Assembly: GCF_000697965.2 (NCBI RefSeq)
Contig: NZ_CP015881.1
Coordinates: 62,001 to 126,000 of the forward strand
DNA: 64,000 nt
Direction of reading: 5' to 3'
Source: Ensifer adhaerens
GTDB taxonomy: Bacteria; Pseudomonadota; Alphaproteobacteria; Rhizobiales; Rhizobiaceae
In this document: one piece after another, positions 23,462 through 46,608 of the stretch
Position numbering within the stretch: the stretch's first letter is position 1
Layout: each line of letters opens with the position of its first letter
Notes under the pieces: model-generated
The model's input: only the letters and a program-made list of their open reading frames with translations
The model's database searches: none
What the model was told of the DNA's origin: nothing
Translations under genes and position numbers: made by a program

Positions 23462-26400
23462 TCATTGAAGAAGCTTGAACAGCTTTCCCAAAGTGCCGCT
23501 GTCCTGTGCCGGTTGCTCGGCTTCTGCAGCGGGTTGCTGATCCGGCTGCGGCGTCTCCGGCGCGGGCTGTTCCACCGCCGTGTCGGGCGGAACTTGCCCA
23601 TCGACGGGCGGTGCCGCCTCGGGCTCGGTGCCGCCACCGCCGATGATCTGCTCGATGGAGAGCTCGCTGCCTTCGTCCTTCGGCTGCTTGCCGATCGCAC
23701 CGCTGAGGATGTCGCGAAGCTTTCCTCCCTTGCCGTCCCCGGACAGAAGCTCATCGAGCCCCAGCTTGCCGGTCGGCAATCCGAGCTTCTTCAAGGTCGA
23801 AAGCGCGGCATCGGGGTTTTTCAAAAGGCCCGAAAGGTCGGGATAGATGCGCGGAGCGGCAAACGACCCTTCGATGACGACTGGCACGCCGATGCCTTCG
23901 GTGGCGATGTCGGCACCCTGGCCCTGCAAGGATGCGACCACGCGGGGATCGAGGCGGAAGTTCAACTGGTCCTCCGGCAGGTTTGCCTCGCCTTTGCCGC
24001 TCATCCGCACGAGGGGGCCGACGAGCTTGATGTCGTCGGTGCGCGCAACGCCGTTCTCGATGGCAAAGGATGCCCCGAGTTCGGTAAAGCCGGTCGCCTT
24101 GTTGTCGTTCTGCTTGAAGCCGGAGGACATCAGGCCGACGAGATTGTTGTAGACGTCGGCAACGTCGATCCCGCGAATGGCGCCGTCGGAGAAACGGACC
24201 TCAGCCGTGCCCTTGAGCGATCGCTTGAGCGTGCCGGTCGTGCCGCCGGCGCCTGCAATGTCGAACGTCGTCTGCAGCGCGCCTTCGAGATGCTTGAAGT
24301 TCGCAAGGTCGGTGAGCAGTGGTGCGGCCGAGGCGCCCGATATCGAGGCCTTCACGGCGATAGACGGCTCCGTGCCGGATCCGTCGGCGGTCAGGCTCGC
24401 GGCCACCTGGCCGCCATAGAAGGGGCTATCCGGAATGTCGAGGTTCGCAATGCCCTCGGAGATCTTCAGGGAGGTTGCGACCGGCCCGGCGACGACGCGG
24501 CCGTAGGCGAGTTTTTCGGCATCGACCTTGATGGAGGCATCGATAGAGCGAAGTGCGGACAGATCCAGCGGAGCATCCGTTGCAGGGCCACCACTCGCTT
24601 TGCTTTTGGCCTTCGCCTGCGGCGCGGCCGAAGGCGCGCCGGCCAACCGCGCGAGGTCTAGTTCCTTGAAATGGAGCGCGCTCGAAATTTTGAGCGGTGT
24701 CCCGAGTTCGACCGCGCCATTACCGCTTCCTTCGACCCCGTTGACCGAGAGCGTGGCCTTCTGGAATGCGACGCCCGCAGCGCTTGCCTTCACGTCGCCA
24801 TTGAAGGCGAATTGCGTGATGCCGCCCGCGTCGGCCTGACCGATCCAGGCAAGAAGCGATCGCAGGTCTGCGGCCGCGAAGTTCACCTTGCCGGCGTAGC
24901 TGCCCGCAAGCGCCGCCTTGCCATCCAGCGCAAGCGTCGCTTCCTTCGTGCGCAGGTCGAGCTTCAGCGGGATGTCGCCCGCACGGGCATTGGCGTCCAT
25001 GAGCAGGTCGCGGACCGGTAGGGTAAGATCGATCTCGGCCGGTTTGCCCCGCCACACGAGGCTGCCCGCAAGACGCATTGGCTTGGCCAGGCCCTCGATC
25101 TTGAGGGCGAGTTTCTTTGCCTTCACCTCGGCCATGGCCGGATCGGCGATGCCGGGAATGACGATGGTCGCGTCACGCAGGCTTGCGCCGCCGGTCACGT
25201 TGATCGTCTTGCGCACAGAGTTCGCGCTTAGTCCGCGAAACGCGAAGGCCGTGTCCATCGTCACGGTTCCCGACAGCGGTACCGATTGGCCGGCCAGAGC
25301 CGCGAGTTTGGAAACGTCGAGCCCGTTGCTGACGACGCGGCCCTGGAAAATCGGCTCGGCGGCGCCGACGTCGGCGGCGAGATCGGCGGCAACACTGCCG
25401 GCGTCGATGCCGAGATGCTCGAGCCGCCCGGTCAACTGCCCGTCCTTGAGGGTCGCCGTCAGCGCGACGTCGGATGCGGAAATGTCACCAACTGCAAGGG
25501 CGCCGACATTGACGCTGATATCGGCGTCAAAACCGGCCAGCGCCTGCAGGCCTGCAGCTGCCTTGGCCTTGTCCGTCCGGCCTGCCGGTTCCTCGGGCTG
25601 CGAGGAGGATGCGGCCGTCTCGCCGTCATCGAGAAATGCGCTCAGATCCAGCCGCTCGGCGTTGAGGTCGGCGAGGAACCGCGGGCGGCTGCCCGGCACG
25701 AACAGCGCGTCGAGCCCGAGCGCTTCGTCGCCGATCGTAAGCTTGCCGCCGCGGATCTGGTATCCGCCATTGGCATTCAGCGCCACCTGGCCGCTGGCGG
25801 TCAGTTCGGTGAGCCCGGCCGCAAGCTGGGGCTCGGCCTCCAGGGAAAGGCTGAGTTCGGCAGGCTTGTGCTCGAGCAGCGGACGCAAAGGCGAAACGGC
25901 AAGCGTGACATCGTAGCGCCGGCCATCGACGCCGGCGCCGGCCGAGAGCGACAATTCGCCATCGATATCCGGAACGGCGAGCGTAAGATTGAGATCGCTG
26001 ACGACGTCGACCGAACCGCCGGCGCCCTCCTGCCGCAGCGTTCCCTCGCTGATCGAGATCTTGTCGATGGCGCTTTTCTCGAGGAAGGCGACGAGGGCGG
26101 CGAGCGGATCGCGCGTTTCGCCCGTGCTCGCCTGTCCCGCCTCAGCCCCCCCGTCTTGCGCAACCGCTGCGGCCTCTGCCTTCGGCCGCAGCGCCACGAC
26201 AGGGCGTACAAGCCTTACTTCCCTCACGTGCAGGCGGTCGGAGCATAGCGAGGAGAGCGTCACGGAGCCCGCGACTTCGCCGATCTCGGCGGTCATGCCG
26301 TCGGCATCGAGCGAGACGTTTTCGGCCACCACCGCCAGATGCGGGACGACGGAAAGTCTGACCGGGCCGTTGAGCGCGATCGCGCTGCCGGTCGCGTTCG

Positions 26401-26518
26401 AGAGTTGCCGTCCCAGTTCGGCGCGCATCCAGTCGCTCGAAACGAAGCTGGGCAGGATCATGACTGAAACGACAGCGAGGACGCCGAGCGCCAGCAGGCA
26501 AAGAAAGAAACGCCGCAT
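23462..26518 (-). CDS. AsmA-family protein
   Basis: A 1018-residue protein with one N-terminal membrane helix (RRFFLCLLALGVLAVVSVMIL) and a long periplasmic beta-rich body of AsmA type. The N-terminal AsmA part includes SSDWMRAELGRQLSNATGSAIALNGPVRLSVVPHLAVVAENVSL; an AsmA-like C-terminal part has GTAEVRFSDGAIRGIDVADVYNNL. A Pro/Glu/Gln-rich tail ends it. AsmA-like proteins are thought to move or organise lipids between membranes. The DUF817 gene lies 100 bp upstream in the same direction. Confidence 0.9.
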   Translation of the reverse strand: MRRFFLCLLALGVLAVVSVMILPSFVSSDWMRAELGRQLSNATGSAIALNGPVRLSVVPHLAVVAENVSLDADGMTAEIGEVAGSVTLSSLCSDRLHVREVRLVRPVVALRPKAEAAAVAQDGGAEAGQASTGETRDPLAALVAFLEKSAIDKISISEGTLRQEGAGGSVDVVSDLNLTLAVPDIDGELSLSAGAGVDGRRYDVTLAVSPLRPLLEHKPAELSLSLEAEPQLAAGLTELTASGQVALNANGGYQIRGGKLTIGDEALGLDALFVPGSRPRFLADLNAERLDLSAFLDDGETAASSSQPEEPAGRTDKAKAAAGLQALAGFDADISVNVGALAVGDISASDVALTATLKDGQLTGRLEHLGIDAGSVAADLAADVGAAEPIFQGRVVSNGLDVSKLAALAGQSVPLSGTVTMDTAFAFRGLSANSVRKTINVTGGASLRDATIVIPGIADPAMAEVKAKKLALKIEGLAKPMRLAGSLVWRGKPAEIDLTLPVRDLLMDANARAGDIPLKLDLRTKEATLALDGKAALAGSYAGKVNFAAADLRSLLAWIGQADAGGITQFAFNGDVKASAAGVAFQKATLSVNGVEGSGNGAVELGTPLKISSALHFKELDLARLAGAPSAAPQAKAKSKASGGPATDAPLDLSALRSIDASIKVDAEKLAYGRVVAGPVATSLKISEGIANLDIPDSPFYGGQVAASLTADGSGTEPSIAVKASISGASAAPLLTDLANFKHLEGALQTTFDIAGAGGTTGTLKRSLKGTAEVRFSDGAIRGIDVADVYNNLVGLMSSGFKQNDNKATGFTELGASFAIENGVARTDDIKLVGPLVRMSGKGEANLPEDQLNFRLDPRVVASLQGQGADIATEGIGVPVVIEGSFAAPRIYPDLSGLLKNPDAALSTLKKLGLPTGKLGLDELLSGDGKGGKLRDILSGAIGKQPKDEGSELSIEQIIGGGGTEPEAAPPVDGQVPPDTAVEQPAPETPQPDQQPAAEAEQPAQDSGTLGKLFKLLQ

Positions 26519-26617: not shown

Positions 26618-27562
26618 CTATCGCGCGCCGACACCCTTTCCGGCGACGGCTGCATCGCTTATCTCGACGGCTGTACTCTCGGCCACGGCTGCCGGAGCGG
26701 CAACCGCGCGCGGACGATGCACGAGCGTGACCAGCACGAACGACAGGATCATCAGCAGATACCAGGCGCCGAGCTTTTGCACGGAGACCAGCGTCCAGCC
26801 GGCATGCTGCGAGGGATAGATCCAGGCCCGCGACCAAGTGCCGATGTTTTCGGCGAACCAGATGAAGAGGGCGACCAGCAGGAAGCCCACGAGCAGCGGC
26901 ATGCGGTGGCGAAAGCGGAAGACGCGATAATGCACCGTGGTGCGAAGGAAGAGGATCGCGGTCAATCCGAACAGCGCGTAGCGAAGGTCGATGATGTAGT
27001 GGTGGCTGAAGAAGTTGACATAGATGGCAAGGGCCAAAAGCAGGGTCGCGATGAGCGGCGGATAGTTGCTGTAGCGCGTGTCGAGAATGCGGGTCACGCG
27101 CGCCAGATAGGAGCCGACGGCGGCATACATGAAACCCGAAAACAAAGGCACGCCGCCGATGCGGAAGAAGCTTGGCTCCGGATAGATCCACGAGCCGACG
27201 GAGGTCTTGAAGATTTCCATCAGCGTGCCGACGACGTGGAAGATCAGGATGACCTTGGCCTCGGCGATGGTCTCGAGCTTGAAGACGAGCAGTGAGATCT
27301 GGATGGCGATGGCGCTCAGGAACAGGAAGTCGTAGCGGGCGAGACCACTACCTTCGGGCCAGTAGAATTTCGTTGCCAGCATCAGGGCCAGCATCGCGCC
27401 GCCGAAGAGGCAGGCGAAGGCCTGCTTGATGCCGAACACCAGAAATTCGGTCAGGCCGCCAAGGAAGCCGCTTGCCGGAAGCCGGTCGAGCACGCCATGC
27501 GCCGCAGCGTCGATGCGCGCCTCAAGGCTCGTAAACCGCCTCTCCTCGGGTTGTCCAACCAT
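26618..27562 (-). CDS. DUF817 family membrane protein
   Basis: A 314-residue inner-membrane protein with about eight helices, recognised as DUF817 by the core EAKVILIFHVVGTLMEIFKTSVGSWIYPEPS and FSGFMYAAVGSYLARVTRI. The start is taken at ATG 27562, eight bases after AGGAGG; ATG 27568 lies too close to it. The function is unknown. The short hydrophilic C-terminus is alanine- and valine-rich. It is upstream of the AsmA gene and may be co-transcribed. Confidence 0.87.
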   Translation of the reverse strand: MVGQPEERRFTSLEARIDAAAHGVLDRLPASGFLGGLTEFLVFGIKQAFACLFGGAMLALMLATKFYWPEGSGLARYDFLFLSAIAIQISLLVFKLETIAEAKVILIFHVVGTLMEIFKTSVGSWIYPEPSFFRIGGVPLFSGFMYAAVGSYLARVTRILDTRYSNYPPLIATLLLALAIYVNFFSHHYIIDLRYALFGLTAILFLRTTVHYRVFRFRHRMPLLVGFLLVALFIWFAENIGTWSRAWIYPSQHAGWTLVSVQKLGAWYLLMILSFVLVTLVHRPRAVAAPAAVAESTAVEISDAAVAGKGVGAR

Positions 27563-28748: not shown

Positions 28749-30491
28749 ATGAGTAAGGACAAGAATATCCTGTGGCCATGGGATGACAGCCAGTCTCAAG
28801 ATCAAGACCAGGGACAAGGACAGGGCCAGGGTCAGGGACAATTGCAGGCGGAGCTGCAAGGCCAGCTTCAGGGACAGGGACAAGGCCAGGGCCAGGGGCA
28901 AGACCAGGGACAGGGCCAGGACCAAGGTCAGGGCCAGGATCAGGGACAATCGCAGTACAGCGAGTCCTACAACGGCAATCTCAACGGCAACGGCAACCTC
29001 AATGGTAACGGCAACGCCAATGCCAACGGGAACGGCAACCTGAACGGCAACGGCAATGCCAACCTGAACGGCAATGGCAACGCCAACCTGAACGGCAATG
29101 GCAACGCCAACCTCAATGCCAACCTCAACGAAAACAGCACCCATGTCGACGTCGACAGCAAGACGACCGTCGACGTGGACGTCGATCTCGATCTGAGCGG
29201 CTACAAGCCGTCCGACGACGACTTTGCCGATATCGACAACTCCTCGATCCACGGCATGGCGAATACGAGCTTCAAGGACATCCTGAACGGCTCGATGAAC
29301 GGCAACAGCAACGTTGCCAACGTGTTCAGCCAGAACGCCATCATGTCGGATGACGACAGCGCCTCTGACATCAACAACAGCGGCACGCTTAACCAGAACG
29401 GCAACGCCAATGCCGGCGACGCCCGCTCGGGCGACGGCATTCAGGCCGGCGCAGACGGTGGTGAAGGCGGAAGCAAGGCCTATGCCAATGGCGGCGACGG
29501 CGGCGATGGCGGCCATAGCGTTGGTGGCTTCGCGGGCGCTGGCGACGGCGATGGCGGCGACGCAGACAACAATGCCGATGCGACCGGCGGTGCCGGCCTT
29601 GGCGGCATTGCAGCCAGTGTTGGCGTTGGCGGCGGCAGCTCCAGCGGTGACGCGAACGGCGGTACGGCGACAGCCGGTGCCGGTGGTGCCGGTGGTGCCG
29701 GTCTCGGCGTCGGCCTCGGTCTCGGTGTCGGCCTTGGTGTCGGCGCGGCAGCCGGCGGCGACGGCGGCAGCAATGGTGCCGGCAACGGTGGCACAAGTGG
29801 CGACGTCACGAGCGGCCCGGCAGGGTCTTCGGATGCAGGTGACGGCGGCGATGCCGGCGGCTTCATCCTTCCAATCCTGAACCTCGGTGGCGACGGTGGC
29901 GACAGCAACGGTGGCAACAGCGTAGCGGTTGGCGATACCGGCAGTGCTGACGGTGGTGATGCCGGCGATGCCGGCGACGGCGGCGGCGCTTTGGGTGCTG
30001 GTCTTGGCGCGGGTGCTGGCTTCGGCGCCGGTGCAGGCGTCGGCGGTGCCGGCGGCGGTGGTGGCGATGCCTATGCCGGTGGCGGCTCTACGGGTGACTC
30101 GACCGGTGGTGACGGTACCGGTGGTGCAGCGACCGGTGGTCACGGCCTCGGCGGCCTCGCGCTCACGGGTTCGTGGGCAGCCGGCGGCGACGGTGGCGAT
30201 GCCTACGGTGGCCATGCAATCGGTGGTGCCGGCGGTGCCGGCGGCGCGGGTGGCTTCGCGACGAACGGTGATGGCGGTGCAGGTGGCAGCGCCGGCATGT
30301 GGGGCTCGTACAATGGTGACGACAGCTTCGTCGAAGGGCTCTCCTCGGCTTCGGCAGACGCAGTTATCGACACCAACGCCTTCAACCAGCAGATCGTGCT
30401 CGGCGCGAACCTGCAGGGCAACACGATCGACATGACGGTCGTCGGTGGTGATTACACGACCACTGCCGTCGGCGACGACGACAACACCTGA
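28749..30491 (+). CDS. Gln-Gly/Asn-Gly/Gly-rich repeat protein, putative type I secretion substrate
   Basis: A 580-residue, strongly acidic low-complexity protein. In order: a short leader MSKDKNILWPWDD; a Gln-Gly/Asp block (about 15-68); an Asn-Gly block with NLNGNGNA units (about 74-127); an acidic linker DVDVDLDLSG; then about 350 residues rich in Gly, Asp and Ala (GGDGG, AGAG, GLGVGLGLG types); and a C-terminus with FNQQIVLGANLQGNTIDM ending in GDDDNT. There is no Sec signal peptide and no cysteine. The canonical RTX nonapeptide is absent. Type I transporter and adaptor genes follow in the same direction, so it is probably exported in one step to the surface, perhaps as a matrix or adhesin protein. 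The role is inferred. Confidence 0.85.
   Translation: MSKDKNILWPWDDSQSQDQDQGQGQGQGQGQLQAELQGQLQGQGQGQGQGQDQGQGQDQGQGQDQGQSQYSESYNGNLNGNGNLNGNGNANANGNGNLNGNGNANLNGNGNANLNGNGNANLNANLNENSTHVDVDSKTTVDVDVDLDLSGYKPSDDDFADIDNSSIHGMANTSFKDILNGSMNGNSNVANVFSQNAIMSDDDSASDINNSGTLNQNGNANAGDARSGDGIQAGADGGEGGSKAYANGGDGGDGGHSVGGFAGAGDGDGGDADNNADATGGAGLGGIAASVGVGGGSSSGDANGGTATAGAGGAGGAGLGVGLGLGVGLGVGAAAGGDGGSNGAGNGGTSGDVTSGPAGSSDAGDGGDAGGFILPILNLGGDGGDSNGGNSVAVGDTGSADGGDAGDAGDGGGALGAGLGAGAGFGAGAGVGGAGGGGGDAYAGGGSTGDSTGGDGTGGAATGGHGLGGLALTGSWAAGGDGGDAYGGHAIGGAGGAGGAGGFATNGDGGAGGSAGMWGSYNGDDSFVEGLSSASADAVIDTNAFNQQIVLGANLQGNTIDMTVVGGDYTTTAVGDDDNT
28797..28952 (+). repeat. Short tandem repeats encoding Gln-Gly/Gln-Asp
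   Basis: Imperfect 6-base units of CAGGGA/CAAGGA/CAGGGC type repeat through this stretch in the same frame, encoding alternating Gln-Gly with some Gln-Asp and two GQLQ interruptions. Third-base variation between units shows selection on the protein rather than recent expansion. Such a tract may still vary in length between strains by slippage. Confidence 0.8.
29037..29108 (+). repeat. Three 24-bp tandem repeats encoding NLNGNGNA
   Basis: Units 29037-29060, 29061-29084 and 29085-29108 begin AACCTGAACGGCAA and differ only at a few third positions. Degenerate copies flank them on both sides (28970-29036 and 29109-29130). The near-identity points to recent unit duplication within the gene. Confidence 0.8.
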
Positions 30492-30504
30492 TCGGTGAGG
30501 GGGC

Positions 30505-30566
30505 GTCGATCCGCGTCTCGCGGAATCGACCCGAGAATGACTGCGCGGGAAGCTCTCGCGCAGTCA
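30505..30566 (+). promoter_or_regulatory. Two tandem intercistronic hairpins
   Basis: Hairpin one pairs GTCGATCCGC (30505-30514) with GCGGAATCGAC (30520-30530), with one bulged base. Hairpin two is a perfect 10-bp stem, TGACTGCGCG (30538-30547) and CGCGCAGTCA (30557-30566), with a nine-base loop. Neither has a T-run. They lie between the repeat-protein gene and the next gene of the operon, where they could stabilise the upstream mRNA or limit read-through, giving more repeat protein than transporter. Confidence 0.6.
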
Positions 30567-30620
30567 GGCACGACCCGCCAAGCCGGCGGGGACTGCCGAC
30601 GACAAGAGGAGGGCCTGACC

Positions 30621-32657
30621 TTGTATTCCGCAAAGATCACCGAGGCCATTGCCCATTTCATCGGTCTCTTCGAACTCTCTACCGAAGAGGCGCGTCTGCG
30701 TGAAATCCATGAGAAGTTCGACCCGGATCGCGACGTCCACAAGGATCCGAAGGAGCTCGTTTCTGCGCCGGTCAAGGTGCACGCACCTTACGATCTCGAC
30801 GACTTCAACCCCGACGTCCCGTACAAGCCGGTCGGACCGGACATCTTCATGCCGATACCGGACGGCTATGCTGGGGTGTCCTTCCCCGAATACCCGATTT
30901 TTGGCGGCTCCCTTGGCCGCGCCAGCTCGGAAGCCTTCCTGCAGGGCGCATCGCCGAGATCGGCCTCGCAGGTGGTCGAGCCGCACATCAACCCGCCGGG
31001 CTCGGTGGTGGTCTACAGCAACCAGACCGCCGAGCTTTCGGACAATGATTTCGTCAGTGTCGGCGGGCATGGCCTGAAGTCCGGCCTGCAGATCGACAAC
31101 AGCGCGACGATGGCCGAGCTCATCGACGCGACGCAGAGTATTTCGCTGCTCGGCGAGACGGATGTCGCCGGCTCCAGTGACGCGATCGCCAGCCTCGTTG
31201 TCGGCACGGCCGAGAGGCTTGAGGCATTCTCCACCGGCGGCGAAGCGGAGGCCGGGGGGCTGAGCGTCACCCATTTTTCAGCCAGGGCCAGCACGCTCGA
31301 AGGCATCTATGTGAACGGCGTGATCGTTGAGGAAGCGCCGGTTCTCAAGGATCACCTGCCGGACCCGGACGAGGCTTCCGATGCGCCGGACGAGCCCGAA
31401 CTGTCGAACGACGGGGTCGAAGTCGAGGGCGGCATCGCCTATGGCGAGGGTGCCGTCGCGGTCGACACTTCGGTCGAGCTGGAAGCGGGCAGCAACACGC
31501 TGGTCAACTCCGTCGTCATCACCAGCGACTGGCTGCAGGCCGAAGTGCTGGCGGTGGCCGGCGACCACGTCGAACTCAACGCGATCGTTCAGGTCAACAC
31601 CCACTATGACAGCGACCTCGTCAGTTCCGCGCTGAGCGGCAACAATATTGAGCAGCATGCTACCCAGGCGTTCAACATCGCCATGTTCAAACATGTCGAG
31701 CCGGCGCAGACGACGCATGCCGACACCGCCGACTTCCCCAAGGTCTGGGCCATCACCGAGGTCAAGGGCGACCTGATGATGGTCAACTGGCTCCAGCAGT
31801 TCACTTTCATGTCGGACCAGGACACGGCGATCCTCGCGGCTTCGGGCTCGAAGCTTTCGATCGTCGGTGGCGACAACACGGCGGCCAACCAGATATCGCT
31901 GCTGGAGCTCGGATACCGCTTTGACCTGATCTTCGTCGGCGGCAGCGTCTTCGACGCCAACATCATCCAGCAGACGAACATCCTGCTCGACAACGATCTG
32001 ATCGGTGCGGTCGGCGGCTTTCACACCAGCGGCGGCGGTTCGGTCTCGACCGGCGGAAACCTGCTTTGGAACTATGCCGGAATCGTCGAAGCTGGCAGTG
32101 CAGGCCCGGTCAATCCGATGTCGGACGGTTACCTGTCCGCGCTGCAGGATCTGTCGGAAGGCAAGAAGCCGTCGGGCGACGACTTTCTGCATGATCCCGC
32201 CTTTGCCGGGCTGAATGGCCTGAGGGTGCTCTACATTTCCGGCGACCTCATCAGCCTCAACTACATCCAGCAGACCAACATTCTCGGCGACAGCGATCAG
32301 GTGACGCTGGCGATGAACGCGCTCGAGGCGCGCCCGGACGCGGACTGGACCATTTCCACGGGCTCGAATGCTCTGCTGAACTATGCCGGGATCGTCGATG
32401 TCGATACGGGCAAGACGATCTATGCCGGCGGCGGCGCCTATTCGGACGAGGTGCTCATCCAGGCGGAGCTGGTCAAGAACGATCCCTATCTCGGTAGTCA
32501 GAACCCGGATGCGCTGGTCAGCGAAGCGGTCGTCTTTCTCGGCGACGACATGCTCACTCCGGATTTCGGCCACCAGCCGCAGGATCAGATCTCGCCGAGC
32601 CATGGGCACGGCATCGATACGGCCAGTGCCGACCCCATGCACAGCATGGTCGCCTGA
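30621..32657 (+). CDS. Putative type I secretion-associated repeat protein, 678 residues
   Basis: TTG 30621 is taken as the start because AGGAGGG (30607-30613) is seven bases upstream and the family-like sequence begins there; the open frame reaches further up but without a ribosome-binding site. The first 110 residues are charged (FELSTEEARLREIHEKFDPDRDVH). The rest is beta-rich, with four copies of G(D/G)xxxxNxIQQxNxxxDxD at about residues 314, 383, 440 and 541 and with paired GxNxLxNYAGIV segments near 475 and 582. There is no signal peptide and no cysteine. The operon position suggests either a second type I substrate or a partner of the repeat protein. No named family is assigned. Confidence 0.8.
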   Translation: MYSAKITEAIAHFIGLFELSTEEARLREIHEKFDPDRDVHKDPKELVSAPVKVHAPYDLDDFNPDVPYKPVGPDIFMPIPDGYAGVSFPEYPIFGGSLGRASSEAFLQGASPRSASQVVEPHINPPGSVVVYSNQTAELSDNDFVSVGGHGLKSGLQIDNSATMAELIDATQSISLLGETDVAGSSDAIASLVVGTAERLEAFSTGGEAEAGGLSVTHFSARASTLEGIYVNGVIVEEAPVLKDHLPDPDEASDAPDEPELSNDGVEVEGGIAYGEGAVAVDTSVELEAGSNTLVNSVVITSDWLQAEVLAVAGDHVELNAIVQVNTHYDSDLVSSALSGNNIEQHATQAFNIAMFKHVEPAQTTHADTADFPKVWAITEVKGDLMMVNWLQQFTFMSDQDTAILAASGSKLSIVGGDNTAANQISLLELGYRFDLIFVGGSVFDANIIQQTNILLDNDLIGAVGGFHTSGGGSVSTGGNLLWNYAGIVEAGSAGPVNPMSDGYLSALQDLSEGKKPSGDDFLHDPAFAGLNGLRVLYISGDLISLNYIQQTNILGDSDQVTLAMNALEARPDADWTISTGSNALLNYAGIVDVDTGKTIYAGGGAYSDEVLIQAELVKNDPYLGSQNPDALVSEAVVFLGDDMLTPDFGHQPQDQISPSHGHGIDTASADPMHSMVA

Positions 32658-32678
32658 TGGGAGTGCGGGAGGATAGTC

Positions 32679-35144
32679 ATGACCGACCGCACGAATCCGT
32701 CTCGGCCAGTGTCTGCCGAAACCGGCGCCGATGCCGCTTCGCGTGCGGAGGAAAACGGAACACGGCCGGAAGCATCCGGCGCCGACGCCGCGCGACGGCA
32801 GTTTCTGCGCAAGCTCAATCATCAGGAACACGTTCTGGACCGTGCTGTTAGGGAGATCGACGGGGTGGCGGACCAAATAAGAAGAGTGGCGGCAAACGGC
32901 GCCGGCGAGGATGGCAACTGGACCCCTTCACCCGTTTCGCCTCTTCCCGGATCGGGCGTTGCCGCAAGGCCGGTACAGATCACCGGTCCGACACCCGGCC
33001 TCGCACCGGCGCGCGCTGCTGCACCGGCCGCACCGATCGGGGCAGCGCAGGCGTCACGCGCACAGATGGGAACGCCACGGGCGGATGCCGCTGAGACGGT
33101 CAACGTCACGTCGCGGCCGTGGCCTCCAAAGACCGAGCCCGTGGCCAGACCCGAGCCGGCTCTGCGCGGCGAGGCGACGGTCGAGCGCCGCCCGTTGCAG
33201 GAGGAACCAAAGCCGGCACCCTGCATCGAAAAGCCGGTCGGAAAACCGGTTGCCTGGCCGACCGCGGAGATGAAGGAGAGATATTCGCCTTCGGGCATGG
33301 TGGTGATCGAAGCCGACCGTGGGCCGATCAAGGCCGAGCCGCGGTCGCCCGACAAAGGTGGCGGATCGTCCGACAAGGGCGGCGGCGGAGGCGGTGGAGG
33401 GGGCGCGTTCCACAAGCGCCTTGGCCCGGTCGATTTTTCGGCGAGCCTCAGCGCTGGTCTCAAGGCGATCCGGCAGAACCTGATGATCGTCATGCTGTTT
33501 ACGATCGTCACCAACATCCTCGTGCTTTCGATCCCTGTTTATCTGTTCCAGATTTCGGACCGGGTGCTGACCAGCCGCTCGGTCGACACGCTGGTGATGC
33601 TGACGGCGATCATCGTCGGCGCGGTGCTGCTGCAGTCGGTTTTCGACGCCATTCGCCGCATGATCCTGATGCGCACCGCCGTGGAGGTGGCCGCGCAACT
33701 CGGCGCGCCGATCCTGAGCGCGGCAGCGAGAGCCGCCCTGCATAGCAACGGGCGCGAGTACCAGACGCTTGGCGACCTGCAGCAGCTTCGCTCCTTCCTC
33801 GTCTCCGGCACGCTGCTTTCGTTTCTCGATGCGCCGATCGCGCCGCTCTTTCTGGTGGCGGTCTTCCTCATCCATCCGCATCTCGGGATAATCGTCGTCA
33901 CCTCAGCCGTTCTCCTCCTCATCGTTACGCTGTTGAACCAGAAAGCGACGGCTGCAGCGTTCGGCGAAGCGACCAATTTCCAGACCAAGGCCAACCTTCA
34001 CCTCGATTCGATGTCGCGCAACTCCCAGATCATCAACGCACTGGCGATGATCCCGGAGGCCGTGCACATCTGGGGCAAGGACATGGCCGGTTCGCTCAAG
34101 GCCCAGGTGATGGCGCAGGACCGCAACATCGCCTTTGCTTCGCTGTCCAAGGCGGTGCGCCTCCTGACGCAGGTGACGATGCTTGGTTGGGGTGCCCATC
34201 TCGCCCTCAATGGCTCGCTCACCGGTGGCATGGTGATTGCGGCCTCCATCATCGCGGGCCGCGCCCTTGGGCCTATCGAGGGCGCGATCGAGGGATGGAG
34301 CCAGGTCATCCAGTCGCGTGCTGCCTACGGGCGCATTTCCGCGCTGCTGAAGACGTCACCGCTCAATTTCGAACGGTTGAAGCTGCCGCGGCCCGAAGGG
34401 CGCCTCGATGTCGAGCGCCTGCTTTTCGTTCCGCAGGGCACCAAGCGCGTGGTGCTCAACGGAATTACCTTTGCGCTGGAGCCCGGCGATTCGCTTGCCG
34501 TGATCGGCAGTTCCGGTGCCGGCAAGACGACGCTCGGCAAGATGCTGGTTGGATCCATCCTGCCGACGTCGGGCAACGTCCGGCTGGATCTCATGGACCT
34601 GAGGAACTGGGACCAGCGGCAGTTCGGCGAAAGCATCGGCTACCTGCCGCAGGATGTGCAGCTGTTTCCCGGCACGATCAAGGCCAACATCGCCCGCATG
34701 CGCGAGGATGCCACCGACGCCGACATCTACGCCGCTGCCAAGCTTGCCGACGTTCACGACATGATCGCCATGCTGCCGCACGGATACGAGACCGTGGTGG
34801 CCGCCGACGGCTCGCCTCTATCGGGCGGCCAGAAGCAGCGCGTCGCCCTTGCCCGCGCCTTCTTCGGCAACCCGCGCATGGTTGTGCTCGACGAGCCCAA
34901 CTCCAATCTCGATACCGCCGGCGAGGCGGCGCTGACGCGGGCGCTGACGCACGCCAAGCGCGAGAAGATCACGGTTGTCACCATCACTCAGCGACCGGCG
35001 CTTTTGAACAGCGTCGACAAGGTTCTGCTGCTCGTCAACGGCACGGTGGCGCTCTTCGGCATGCGCCAGGACGTTCTCAAGGCACTCGCTTCGCGTGGGG
35101 TGAATACCGAAGGCAACCCGCTCGAACAAAACCAGCTTCCGTAG
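32679..35144 (+). CDS. Type I secretion system permease/ATPase with long N-terminal extension
   Basis: An 821-residue PrtD-type ABC exporter. About 240 N-terminal residues form an Ala/Pro-rich disordered extension with a short helical segment (RRQFLRKLNHQEHVLDRAVREID) and a poly-Gly linker just before the membrane domain. Six membrane helices follow (about 260-530). The ATPase domain has Walker A GSSGAGKTT (about 610), signature LSGGQKQR (about 714) and Walker B MVVLDEP (about 734). No C39 peptidase domain is present. It should energise one-step export of the proteins encoded just upstream. The start follows GGGAGGA, 21 bp after the preceding stop. Confidence 0.92.
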   Translation: MTDRTNPSRPVSAETGADAASRAEENGTRPEASGADAARRQFLRKLNHQEHVLDRAVREIDGVADQIRRVAANGAGEDGNWTPSPVSPLPGSGVAARPVQITGPTPGLAPARAAAPAAPIGAAQASRAQMGTPRADAAETVNVTSRPWPPKTEPVARPEPALRGEATVERRPLQEEPKPAPCIEKPVGKPVAWPTAEMKERYSPSGMVVIEADRGPIKAEPRSPDKGGGSSDKGGGGGGGGGAFHKRLGPVDFSASLSAGLKAIRQNLMIVMLFTIVTNILVLSIPVYLFQISDRVLTSRSVDTLVMLTAIIVGAVLLQSVFDAIRRMILMRTAVEVAAQLGAPILSAAARAALHSNGREYQTLGDLQQLRSFLVSGTLLSFLDAPIAPLFLVAVFLIHPHLGIIVVTSAVLLLIVTLLNQKATAAAFGEATNFQTKANLHLDSMSRNSQIINALAMIPEAVHIWGKDMAGSLKAQVMAQDRNIAFASLSKAVRLLTQVTMLGWGAHLALNGSLTGGMVIAASIIAGRALGPIEGAIEGWSQVIQSRAAYGRISALLKTSPLNFERLKLPRPEGRLDVERLLFVPQGTKRVVLNGITFALEPGDSLAVIGSSGAGKTTLGKMLVGSILPTSGNVRLDLMDLRNWDQRQFGESIGYLPQDVQLFPGTIKANIARMREDATDADIYAAAKLADVHDMIAMLPHGYETVVAADGSPLSGGQKQRVALARAFFGNPRMVVLDEPNSNLDTAGEAALTRALTHAKREKITVVTITQRPALLNSVDKVLLLVNGTVALFGMRQDVLKALASRGVNTEGNPLEQNQLP

Positions 35145-35150
35145 GCGATC

Positions 35151-36491
35151 ATGAGCGACATGGCCAAAGTGCAGGATCTGACCTGGTACGCAGAGGTTCC
35201 GCGTTCAATCTGGCAGCATACGATGATCGGCCTGGTGCTGATCGTCGTGACCTTCGGCGGCTTTGGCCTTTGGGCCTTCACCGCGCCTTTGGCGGCAGCC
35301 ATCATCGCCCAGGGCAGCTTTGTCGCAACCGGGCAGAACAAGGTGGTCCAGCACTTCGAAGGCGGGATCATCAAGGATATTCTGGTGAGCGAGGGCGACC
35401 GCGTAACCGTGGATCAGCCGTTGGTGCGGCTGGACGAAACGGCCGCACAAGCGAACGAGAGGCAGTATTTTCTGCGCTGGGCGCGGCTGGAGGCGATCGT
35501 CGCCCGGCTGACCGCGCAGGCGCACGGTTTGAAGCAGATCGTGCTGCCCGCGGTTCTCACGGAGCATGTCAAGAAAGATCCTGAGATTGTCCCGATCGTG
35601 CAGAGCCAGGAGCTCAATTTCCAGACCTGGAGGAGCAAGCTCGACAGCGATATCGGACTGTTGAAGCGGAATATCGAGAGCCTGGAGTTCCGCTCGCAAG
35701 GTTTTCAGGAGCAGCTGAAATCGGTGCGCGAGCAAAGAGTCCTGCTCGAGGAGGAATACATCGGCAAGAAGACGCTTTTGGCCAAGGACCTGATCCGCAA
35801 GACGGAGATCAAGACCATCCAGCGCGCGATCGCCGATGCAGAGGGCCAGATTGGCCGTCTGATGTCCGAAGTCTCGGAGACCGGCTCCCAGATCCTCAAG
35901 CAGCAGCAGCAGGTCAACCAGACCGAACAGAGCTACCAAGAGGCTGCGCTCGACGAATTGCAGAAGGCCGAGGGTGAACTGGACACAGTGCGTGAACAAT
36001 TGCGCGGCGCCACCAATGTGCTCCGCCGCGCGACGATCAACGCGCCGGTGACCGGCACGGTCATCAGGATGCATTTTCATACGTCCGGCGGCGTCATCGA
36101 GAGCGGCAAGCCGATCATGGAAATCCTGCCGGCCGATGTACCGCTCATCATCGAGGCGCAGGTGCTGCGCACCGACGTCGACAATATCCGGGTCGGCGAG
36201 AAGGCGACGGTGCGGCTGACCGCGCTGAACCAGCGCACGACGCCGGTCCTCAATGGGCAGGTCTTCTACGTGTCGGCGGACGCCCTGCCGGTGCAGACGC
36301 ATGAGGGCACGCGCGAAGTCTACCTGGCGCGCGTCAGCCTTCCGGCAAGCGAGCTTGCAAGAGTTCACAATTTCGTCGTGACCCCCGGCATGCCGGCGGA
36401 AATTCTGATCCAGACGGCGGAGCGGACCTTCTTCGACTATCTCACCAAGCCGATCCGCGACAGCATGGCGCGCGCCTTCATGGAAAACTGA
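35151..36491 (+). CDS. HlyD-family type I secretion periplasmic adaptor
   Basis: A 446-residue membrane fusion protein of the PrtE/PrsE type. One membrane helix lies at about residues 22-45, then the lipoyl half-motif AQGSFVATGQNKVVQHFEGGIIKDILVSEGDRV, a long coiled coil (about 120-290), the second lipoyl half (ATINAPVTGTVIRMHFHTSGGVI) and a beta-barrel end. It connects the ABC exporter, six bases upstream, with an outer-membrane TolC-type channel, which is not in this window and must be supplied from elsewhere. Confidence 0.93.
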   Translation: MSDMAKVQDLTWYAEVPRSIWQHTMIGLVLIVVTFGGFGLWAFTAPLAAAIIAQGSFVATGQNKVVQHFEGGIIKDILVSEGDRVTVDQPLVRLDETAAQANERQYFLRWARLEAIVARLTAQAHGLKQIVLPAVLTEHVKKDPEIVPIVQSQELNFQTWRSKLDSDIGLLKRNIESLEFRSQGFQEQLKSVREQRVLLEEEYIGKKTLLAKDLIRKTEIKTIQRAIADAEGQIGRLMSEVSETGSQILKQQQQVNQTEQSYQEAALDELQKAEGELDTVREQLRGATNVLRRATINAPVTGTVIRMHFHTSGGVIESGKPIMEILPADVPLIIEAQVLRTDVDNIRVGEKATVRLTALNQRTTPVLNGQVFYVSADALPVQTHEGTREVYLARVSLPASELARVHNFVVTPGMPAEILIQTAERTFFDYLTKPIRDSMARAFMEN

Positions 36492-36724: not shown

Positions 36725-36882
36725 CATCGAAGCAATGCATCTCCTCCCGCAGAGCTTCGATGCGGTGAACGATCTCCTCCTCCCATGGATCGTTCACGAG
36801 ATCAGCGCCACTCCTCCTCCCAGGCTGCTGATCGATTTTTAGAGAGCCTGCCGCTCCTCCCGCGGCGGGCTCTTTTGTTTTT
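36725..36882 (+). ncRNA. Small RNA with four anti-Shine-Dalgarno hairpin loops (alpha-r14/cuckoo-like)
   Basis: Four consecutive hairpins. Hairpin one: CATCGAAGC (36725-36733) with GCTTCGATG (36754-36762). Two: GTGAACGATC (36765-36774) with GATCGTTCAC (36788-36797). Three: GATCAGC (36800-36806) with GCTGATC (36827-36833). Four: GAGCCTGCCGC (36844-36854) with GCGGCGGGCTC (36862-36872), followed by a T-run. Every loop exposes TCCTCCC, complementary to ribosome-binding sites. TATATT at 36714-36719 is a fitting -10 box for a start near 36725. The architecture matches the alphaproteobacterial alpha-r14 ('cuckoo', NfeR-type) RNAs, which base-pair with mRNA translation start regions. The strand is set by the terminator. 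Confidence 0.82.
36844..36882 (+). terminator. Rho-independent terminator of the small RNA
   Basis: An 11-bp stem with one G-T pair and loop TCCTCCC is followed by TTTTGTTTTT. It would define the 3' end of the small RNA while also presenting an anti-Shine-Dalgarno motif in its loop. Confidence 0.88.
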
Positions 36883-44607: not shown

Positions 44608-44703
44608 TGGCGGAGGGGAGTGGGGGTCGAACCCACCCGGGACAGGCTCGCTGCCCCAACCGGATTTGAAGTCCGGCCGTCCCACCGGAGACGATTCCCT
44701 TCC
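44608..44703 (-). tRNA. selC: tRNA-Sec (anticodon TCA), CCA encoded
   Basis: Read on the minus strand the 96-nt gene starts GGAAGGGAATCG, has a long D stem, the anticodon arm GGACTTCAAATCC with TCA, a long variable arm, the T-loop GGTTCGACCC and ends GCCA... with CCA encoded at 44608-44610. The acceptor stem has eight pairs with one A-C mismatch. The length and sequence match bacterial selenocysteine tRNA. Its first base directly follows the selB stop codon, so the two may be one transcript. It serves the UGA codon in fdoG upstream. Confidence 0.93.
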
Positions 44704-46608
44704 TCAGCGCTGAAACAGGTCGCTGCGATGGGGATTTATGCGACGCAGATCTCCCCTGCGCAAGGTCAGGCCGAGCCGGTCGTAGAAATCGAGGACCTCG
44801 ATGGCGACCTTGCGGCCGTTGTGGACCCGGTCGCGAAAGCTGGGCGCGGTGAACCAGCCGTCTTCCGCCTGTGCCGCCACATCGAGCACGATGGCCGCCA
44901 TCTCCTCAACGACCGCGCGGGCGAAAAAATGGTCGTGCGCGATCTCGTGGGTCTGCCCGAGCCTCTGGGCGAGCTTCAGCACGCGCCGTATGTCGCGCTC
45001 GTCGGCATTGAGAAGGGCCGCGAAATCGCGCACGCGCGGTGGCCGGAAGCGGCTATCGTCGACGAGGTGCGGATGGATCCGCTGCCACAGGTCCTCGTCC
45101 GCCGGCGACAGCCGAACCTCGTGGCCCGGCAGGCGCAGGAAGGCGCCGTCAAGCACGATTCGACCTGCCGCGGCTTCGTCTCGGAGGAACGCGAGGAAGC
45201 TTGTCGTCGGCAGGCGCGGTTTGAGCAGGAGCCGCAACCGTTCGCGGCCGATGCCGGCAAGCTCCGGGTTTTCTGCGTGGAAGGCTGTGAGTGTGTCAGT
45301 CAGGTTCGCCCGCAATCCGTCCGCTGCTGCGGACGAGAGCGCGTGGTCGCCGATGGCCCTCGCCCCGGCGGCAATCAGCAGCCCGGAAAGCGTGTCCTCG
45401 CCCAGGCCACGGTCGCGCAGGAAGGCCGCAAGCTCGATCGGTGCCAGGTCGGACAGGTCGGAAAGGGCCGCCGCCGGGTCCTCGTTGCCAGAAGCGGTAA
45501 GGAAGGCCAGTCGCTCCGGCGTGCCACGCTTTCGCGCCGGCGGGCGCAGATCGAGAAAACGGCCACCGCCGATGGTCCGGATGGCCGAGGTGTCGCGCAG
45601 GATGAAGTGGTCGCCGATGGTCGCGGCGATGGGGCGGTCGAGGACCAGTTGCACGAGGCCTTGTGTCCCGGGATCGAGCGGGCCGGCAAGAGGCACGATC
45701 CGCGCACCGACCTCTGTCGCATGGGTGTGCAAGCGTGCGGGAAACCAGGTGCCGATCGGCTTGGCCTCCGAGGCAAGCACGCGGACCTCCGCGTCGATCC
45801 GGTCCGTCGGTGCATGCAGTGCCGGGGCGAGGACCACGTCGCCGCGCCGGATCGCGTCCTTCGTCACCCGTTCGCCGGCGATGTTCAGCGCGCAGCGTTG
45901 GCCGGCAAGCCCCTCCGCTGCTTTCCGGTTCTGCGCATGGATCCCGCGTATACGGGCGGTCAGGCCGGACGGGCTGACCGTGACGCTATCGTCGAGCTTC
46001 GCACGGCCGCCGAGCACCATGCCGGTCACGACCGTGCCGGCGCCCGCAAGCGTGAAACTGCGATCGACGGCAAAGCGCAGCAGGCCGGCATCGTTGCGTG
46101 CGGCGGTTTCCGCTTCGGCGGCGGCGAGCCCCGCGCGCAGGACCTCGATGCCTTCGCCGGTAAGGGCGGAGACGGCAAGGATGGGCGCCTTTTCCAGACC
46201 GGTGCCGGCGAGGGCGGTCTGGATCTCCGCGGTTACCTCCGCGCGCCGCTCAGGCCCGGCCAGATCGGCCTTGGTGAGCGCAACGAAACCTCTGGTGATG
46301 CCGAGCAAGTCGAGGATCGCGAGATGCTCGCGCGTCTGCGGCATGATGCCGTCGTCGGCTGCGACCACCAGCAGCGCGAAATCGATGCCGCCAGCGCCGG
46401 CAAGCATCGTATGGATCAGCCGCTCGTGACCCGGCACGTCAACGAAGCCGGTGACCGTCCCGCCGCCGAGGTCGGTATAGGCAAAACCGAGGTCGATGGT
46501 GATGCCGCGGGCTTTTTCCTCGGCAAGGCGGTCGGCGTCCGTGCCGGTCAGGGCCTTCACCAACGCCGTCTTGCCGTGGTCGATATGCCCTGCCGTCCCG
46601 ACGATCAT
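44704..46608 (-). CDS. selB: Selenocysteine-specific elongation factor SelB
   Basis: A 634-residue GTPase, slightly longer than E. coli SelB (614). The EF-Tu-like domain begins [22 protein letters not shown] (G1), with [13 protein letters not shown] (G3). C-terminal winged helices that bind the SECIS hairpin follow (about 380-630). It delivers Sec-tRNA to UGA in fdoG mRNA. ATG 46608 overlaps the selA stop as ATGA; the 3' end touches the tRNA-Sec gene. Confidence 0.95.

Follow-up and report, generated by a model that had tools for sequence, protein, structure and literature searches.

A conserved, probable type I secretion unit of Ensifer adhaerens with two signature-sharing proteins: a candidate two-component surface matrix

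Why should a bacterium keep two proteins of unusual composition directly next to a type I exporter, and what could it build with them? The question is raised by four genes in a stretch of 64,000 nucleotides from Ensifer adhaerens (contig NZ_CP015881.1, positions 62,001 to 126,000; hereafter called the window), which belongs to a contig of 1.74 Mb in a genome of 7.27 Mb over 3 contigs. A first-pass annotation, made from the letters of the sequence, had proposed a dedicated type I secretion operon. Many alphaproteobacteria of soil and sea have this gene set, which, like its two presumed cargoes, is still unnamed. No paper on such a locus was found in the literature, which is weak evidence of absence, with subscription journals and preprints largely uncovered. 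The genes are as follows:

28749-30491, + strand: gene A (P0001), 580 residues, acidic and of low complexity, predicted first cargo
30621-32657, + strand: gene B (P0002), 678 residues, repeat protein with Asn, Gln and Asp signatures, predicted second cargo
32679-35144, + strand: ATP-binding cassette (ABC) exporter of the PrtD type (P0003), 821 residues
35151-36491, + strand: HlyD-type adaptor (P0004), 446 residues

The annotation had described four co-directional genes with a PrtD-type exporter and a HlyD-type adaptor, and both the coordinates and the family matches agreed with this: the exporter scored above the cut-off of TIGR01842 (709.2 versus 510.15 bits; core at residues 261-803) and the adaptor above that of TIGR01843 (389.4 versus 208.65 bits). 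B starts with TTG, preceded by a purine-rich gaggaggg, and matches part of plasmid unnamedA of Ensifer adhaerens Casida A-T305 at 100% identity. A and B of the window reached the cut-off of no family in Pfam and NCBIfam, and RTX families in these collections gave no match. The statement that both lack a Sec signal, cysteines and canonical RTX repeats was likewise borne out. Neither contains cysteine; strict RTX nonapeptides occurred as two single, non-tandem matches in A and not at all in B; by hydropathy, the N-terminus of A had no hydrophobic segment, and that of B one moderately hydrophobic 12-mer (mean 1.56) within a predicted, conserved helix. Among relatives of A, 95/100 proteins were free of cysteine. 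As the following comparisons indicate, A, B, exporter and adaptor form a conserved unit, and it is very likely that A and B are secreted by a type I exporter dedicated to them. That this self-contained unit also serves to build a cross-beta surface matrix of two components has, in our view, an even chance; secretion, fibre formation and the role of A and B are what we infer from the patterns described below.

One genome per species was scanned for relatives of B, and the best 80 of 271 were kept, so that the 61/61 given below describes the closer part of the family. Since relatives share descent, the counts are not independent events. Of the 80 loci, 79 had A, all 80 the exporter and 79 the adaptor, and both of the missing genes (L061, L087) fall at locus ends; the 61 loci with at least 5.5 kb on either side held all four genes together (61/61). 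A, exporter and adaptor accompanied B in 13/13 plasmid loci fetched from 31 records, one of them being a copy of the window (plasmid matches include Paracoccus, Sulfitobacter, Cereibacter and Shinella), and the four genes were kept in 18/18 further distinct genomes, from 20 hand-picked, mostly divergent genomes of which two repeat earlier loci. Thus the proposed dedicated operon was recovered in all three sets, and homologues of A and B were not found regularly away from the transporter. In a recount, 108 of 114 loci were distinct, with a single copy of each taken and the frame-broken loci L032, L035 and L088 excluded; L031, L032, L035 and L088 were omitted from the counts of B tails, A periodicity, signature density, gap lengths and stems.

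Among 297 genomes sampled from the family, 67 had B and 66 of those the C-terminal domain of A as well; B without A occurred only in G672, as a 146-residue frame in a genome 85% complete in 1070 contigs. In 68/68 cases A directly preceded B and shared its strand, with a median of 138 nucleotides between the matched parts. Outside the family the unit was rare: in samples that contained the own genome, 2/385 genomes of the class and 8/398 of the phylum had it, the latter 8 without exception members of the class.

The locus of Rhodobacter sp. CZR27 (L032, 4566-9119) has A and B in one annotated frame. A fused A-B protein was rejected here, since the C-terminal domain of A lies in a separate frame, and the locus is read as a frame break. 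In Rhizobium sp. RCAM05350 (L035/L088) the frames of A, B, exporter and adaptor are all broken, perhaps in a decaying or poorly sequenced copy.

If the unit is conserved, which parts of its two predicted cargoes are conserved with it? Protein A is made up of the following segments:

28785-28958, + strand: alternating QG stretch of A (residues 13-70), period-2 power of Q 12.6 versus 0.27 in shuffles
28959-29138, + strand: alternating NG/NL stretch of A (residues 71-130), period-2 power of N 13.1 versus 0.26 in shuffles
29331-29357, + strand: Q-x5-D-x-D signature of A (residues 195-203), with Q, D and D invariant in A2 and A4
29424-30293, + strand: glycine-rich stretch of A (residues 226-515), 43% Gly, missing from short A proteins
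30294-30488, + strand: conserved C-terminal 65 residues of A (516-580) with GANxxxN

The alternation of Q and that of N were each reached by 0/2000 shuffles. Gly accounts for 29% of the whole protein; the glycine-rich stretch had no strong single period, and polyglycine-II triplets were rejected, as there was no period-3 signal (474/2000 shuffles reached the value). What the family keeps are two parts of A, residues about 131-225 and 516-580. The first-pass description of A as consisting almost wholly of QG, NG and Gly-Asp-Ala repeats overlooked these two parts. Q-x5-D-x-D was present in 97/98 distinct A proteins and GANxxx[NT] near the end in 94/98. The A protein of Sinorhizobium meliloti Ak57, of 183 residues, has both signatures and no low-complexity parts; the extreme composition is therefore not the defining feature of A. 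AlphaFold2, with an alignment from 38 of 57 listed loci, returned a disordered A (mean predicted local distance difference test, pLDDT, 37) and was uninformative. Single matches of relatives of A to TrAA12 (2.4e-5), ClfB (0.0011) and ArfC (0.0026) are read as effects of composition.

The low complexity of A could perhaps be a product of neutral replication slippage without any function, which we regard as very improbable. The residue type of the repeats shifts between relatives (QG, QE, EN, DA, SE), short A proteins do without repeat stretches, and Tandem Repeats Finder gave 13 rows over gene A, mostly imperfect arrays with 66-100% matches, all of which speak for slippage. Against these stand the mixed synonymous codons within the repeats, a strong period of two in 57/100 relatives, the residues of the low-complexity parts varying between A proteins, and the near-invariance of the flanking signatures. 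Because codons are mixed and signatures conserved, an artefact of slippage appears unlikely in spite of the imperfect DNA arrays. In the A proteins of L124 and L131, repeats of the kind NDNS or EDSLNDNS replace QG and NG, i.e., the low-complexity part changes its type between lineages.

Protein B carries its conserved residues in a regular arrangement:

31011-32297, + strand: five Q-arms of B, Q-x5-D-x-D (residues 135, 324, 393, 451, 551)
31488-32381, + strand: four N-arms of B, G-x-N-x3-N (residues 290, 417, 478, 581)
32631-32654, + strand: C-terminal tail of B, DPMHSMVA, candidate type I export signal

Across an alignment of 68 B proteins, most invariant residues belonged to G-x-N-x3-N or Q-x5-D-x-D, both of which recur along the chain. 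Exactly five Q-arms were counted in 89/108 distinct relatives, the remainder having one to seven, and the density of Q-x5-D-x-D was 7.1 per 1000 residues in B versus 0.02 in exporter plus adaptor. Even positions of the Q-arm were conserved with a mean of 0.86 versus 0.63 for odd positions, a difference reached by 2/20000 permutations. AlphaFold2 (68 sequences; alignment from 67 of 80 loci, with 12 lost to the start pattern and L088 skipped) placed long strands over the arms, at a predicted template modelling score of 0.65 and a mean pLDDT of 66, with 183/678 residues below 50. B is predicted to consist of long beta-strands which carry invariant N, Q and D on one face.

As far as residue patterns go, A and B have two signatures in common: A holds one copy of each with the glycine-rich stretch between them, and B holds several copies. 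A profile of the middle segment of A matched four of the arms in B, the best with P 7e-4 (probability 26%); a profile of its C-terminus matched an N-arm region of B (P 0.013, probability 3%), and 0/60 column-shuffled controls reached either score. An earlier comparison of the whole profiles of A and B had given 1.6%. The annotation had guessed at an amyloid-like nature; the N/Q signatures and the strand prediction lend this guess some support from sequence.

Would such proteins have to form fibres? A and B might instead be exported adhesins or matrix lectins, folded as monomers, which bind exopolysaccharide or calcium in the manner of rhizobial Rap or S-layer proteins. This we consider doubtful, with some chance of being right. 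A rhizobial type I exporter, PrsDE, carries adhesins and exopolysaccharide glycanases (PMC2275737, in excerpt). In 3/4 records (two Shinella, one Sulfitobacter) polysaccharide genes flank the unit within 20 kb, a count without a base rate; the fourth, from Paracoccus, has lipid A genes near the unit. The top Foldseek match for B was a tapirin adhesin domain, which was insignificant, and the S-layer domain SlpA_D2 matched weakly in 2/13 B proteins (best E 0.03), window B not being one of them. On the other hand, there is no RTX array and no adhesin or lectin family above the cut-off in A or B of the window, and a conservation of N, Q and D confined to one face is more in keeping with stacked rungs than with a binding site.

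Whether both proteins leave the cell depends on their export signals. The C-terminal export motif of serralysin-like proteins consists of an acidic residue followed by hydrophobic ones. B proteins end in D-x-M-Q/H-T/S-x-L-A or close variants; the Asp stands at position -8 in 88/108 distinct loci and at -8 or -9 in 104/108, and positions -6, -3 and -2 are mostly hydrophobic. The signal of A is probably located in its conserved C-terminal 65 residues; the end of A is acidic and differs from the tail of B. An arrangement with A as the sole cargo, and with B as a chaperone or anchor that assists its assembly in the cytosol or the envelope, is unlikely in our estimate. It would suit the disordered chain of A, the position of B between cargo and exporter, the conserved N-terminal helix of B and a weak NCBIfam match to the chaperone FapA in 1/13 B proteins (E 0.18, 12 versus 110 bits). 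It accounts less well for a conserved tail in B of the type I cargo kind, for the absence of cysteine from window B, and for the several signature copies of B against the one of A at its conserved place.

The exporter itself raises the question whether it is an ordinary member of its type. Judged by one residue of its nucleotide-binding core, it belongs to a distinct PrtD-type group:

34989-34991, + strand: H-loop Gln of the exporter (residue 771)

Gln occupied the H-loop in 106/106 readable distinct loci (97 TQR, 9 TQK), with L087 and L113 being cut off, and each of the 110 loci examined had Walker A, the LSGGQ signature and Walker B intact. Of 32 PrtD-type exporters from the own genome and from relatives, a part of the PrtD-type matches listed, 11/11 linked to B had Gln and 21/21 others had His. 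The H-loop His of HlyB has been termed a linchpin (PMC8277102, in excerpt); in MRP1, a Gln put at the H-loop position of the second site left transport similar to that of the wild type (PMC7756269, in excerpt). By analogy with these two proteins, the exporter is probably active with an altered timing. It has an N-terminal extension of about 260 residues. Over 114 loci, a set that includes broken and duplicate ones, 84-705 codons lay between the stop of B and the ABC core, and in exporters of this group from Mesorhizobium (L083, 10026-13820) the part preceding the core can reach about 700 codons. As a unique mark of the group the extension was rejected, because some unlinked PrtD-type exporters have frames of 793-831 residues; these are L168, L170, L173 and L174, with His in the H-loop and no B in the flank examined. 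The unit contains no gene for an outer-membrane channel, and the genome was not searched for TolC.

How could A and B be made in suitable amounts? A hairpin and a linked gene may be relevant here:

30538-30566, + strand: stem-loop between A and B, sole match of its pattern in the genome
27724-28206, - strand: q203, linked protein of about 160 residues with an RNKYSH (R-x4-H) motif

The gap between A and B had a median of 129 nucleotides in 105 loci, and 103 of these gaps (30-250 nucleotides) were used for counting stems. A perfect stem of at least 9 base pairs was present in 88/103 loci (86/101 distinct ones) versus 2/515 dinucleotide shuffles, and the 88 stems had 55 different arms. By the pattern used, a run of T followed the stem in 3/88; a general function as an intrinsic terminator was therefore rejected, and the stem more likely protects the A message or takes part in its processing. 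A would perhaps be produced in excess.

The gene q203 was found in 61/61 well-flanked loci, either upstream and divergent or downstream, and in 17/18 further distinct genomes; it occurred without B in two genomes, G477 (E 1.2e-4) and G532 (68% complete). The motif R[NH]xxxH was present in 90/93 distinct q203 proteins, L119, L120 and L133 having been dropped beforehand, as their start motif was not found. Members of the HEPN superfamily carry the motif R-x4-6-H, which is present in q203, and a HEPN_Cthe2314 profile matched weakly in 1/15 members (E 0.043). For the q203 of the window the best profile match was DUF2857 (E 0.0015, below the cut-off) and the best PDB match had an E value of 0.39.

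The near-constant presence of q203 recalls contact-dependent killing of the Cdz kind, in which A and B would be aggregate-forming toxins and q203 the immunity protein. In Caulobacter, Cdz comprises two type I-exported proteins, of which one forms aggregates on the surface, together with an immunity gene linked to them (PMC5380434, in excerpt); besides, a 203-residue reading of q203 weakly matches the membrane protein family TIGR04561 (17.1 versus 30 bits). However, CdzC and CdzD have 86 and 84 residues with glycine zippers, and CdzI three predicted transmembrane segments, according to the same excerpt. A and B have 580 and 678 residues, a simple hydropathy test gave q203 no clear transmembrane segment (19-residue maximum 1.34), and its RNxxxH motif is more nuclease- or regulator-like. 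Killing of this kind seems quite unlikely to us.

The cross-beta matrix reading would connect these elements as follows. A and B would stay unfolded in the cytosol and leave the cell through exporter and adaptor, with the outer-membrane channel supplied by a gene elsewhere. Once exported, B would fold into stacked cross-beta rungs, with ladders of Asn and Gln to hold the stack together and possibly calcium at its D-x-D pairs; A would dock on or join this stack by its single signature copies, and its disordered chain of Gln, Asn and Gly would act as a filler or hydrogel. The stem-loop would probably protect or trim the message, with A in excess as the result. The likely role would be a cell-surface or biofilm matrix, perhaps together with exopolysaccharide.

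Several points weigh against this. Each of the two residue patterns arises in 4-6% of shuffles of the window's own segments, so that the weight has to rest on the profiles and the invariance; the fold predicted for B had no significant structural match, and for perfect repeats AlphaFold2 is known to predict solenoids too often (PMC11795689, in excerpt). The profile of B found nothing of note in the PDB.

Which known systems resemble the proposed matrix? Asn/Gln frameworks have been described for FapC (PMC12392863) and CsgA (PMC12822426), both in excerpt. With the Fap system of Pseudomonas (FapB, FapC) the unit shares imperfect repeats with a conserved N/Q/G framework, a repeat common to two proteins and linkers of variable length (PMC12392863). 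However, no Fap component scored above its cut-off among A, B, exporter, adaptor and q203; a type I ABC unit adjoins here instead of FapF, each Q-arm has a D-x-D pair, and the spacing of the arms is variable. Curli (CsgA, CsgB) have comparable alternating strand motifs, N-x-hydrophobic-x-hydrophobic-x-Q (PMC12822426), and relatives of the unit often have a LuxR-type regulator nearby, which was found upstream in 43/61 well-flanked loci, the window's own unit having none within the stretch examined. Helix-turn-helix scores of two such regulators were best for NarL and next for CsgD, far below the cut-offs. Unlike curli, the unit has a type I exporter and no CsgG channel, and no curlin repeat family matched 13 B and 11 A proteins (Pfam to E 1). 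Cdz, as discussed, likewise belongs to an alphaproteobacterium and joins two proteins to a type I exporter of their own; it differs in cargo size and immunity gene. In the S-layer protein RsaA and other RTX cargoes, the gene of an abundant surface polymer lies directly upstream of an ABC exporter and adaptor (PMC3034196, in excerpt); in contrast, there is no RTX nonapeptide array here, the cargoes are two, and the exporter has an H-loop Gln and an N-terminal extension. The first-pass annotation was supported in its dedicated type I operon, and had missed the shared signatures, the stem-loop, the H-loop Gln, the gene of about 160 residues and the LuxR-type regulator.

A more specific form of the matrix reading would describe a widespread and so far undescribed class of functional-amyloid-like matrices with one-step export by a dedicated type I exporter, in which A and B co-polymerise on an N/Q/D rung. 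Stacked D-x-D pairs would make the folding dependent on calcium, and the proteins would therefore be unfolded inside the cell; the H-loop Gln would re-time or slow the turnover of ATP for the threading of low-complexity chains, and q203, as an RNase of the HEPN type acting on the stem-loop, would set the ratio of A to B. Taken as a whole, this is rather unlikely in our view.

If the matrix reading is true, more than one in five of the sampled family genomes (67/297) would carry such a system, as would plasmids of Rhodobacterales, the carriers including plant-associated and marine species. Type I secretion would then offer a single-step way to cross-beta fibres at the surface, beside the routes of curli and Fap, and the exporter would be a natural ABC protein with Gln in place of the switch His in both sites. 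Q-arm, N-arm and H-loop Gln should be clean markers for finding and testing the family.

Downstream of the unit, one further site resembles an intrinsic terminator:

36841-36875, + strand: stem of 14 pairs followed by the T-run TGTTTTT

Since terminator-like sites across the region numbered 9, versus 5.8 (standard deviation 3.2) in shuffles, this site is only suggestive. A distant relative of the same class and another family (L118, 3997-6006) has two A-like frames before B and no match to q203. In the window, q203 is adjoined by a DUF817 family protein (26618-27334, - strand), and an AsmA/YhdP-like protein of 1018 residues (23462-26518, - strand) is encoded upstream of the unit. The sole tRNA gene detected by ARAGORN in the window was one for selenocysteine (44608-44704, - strand).

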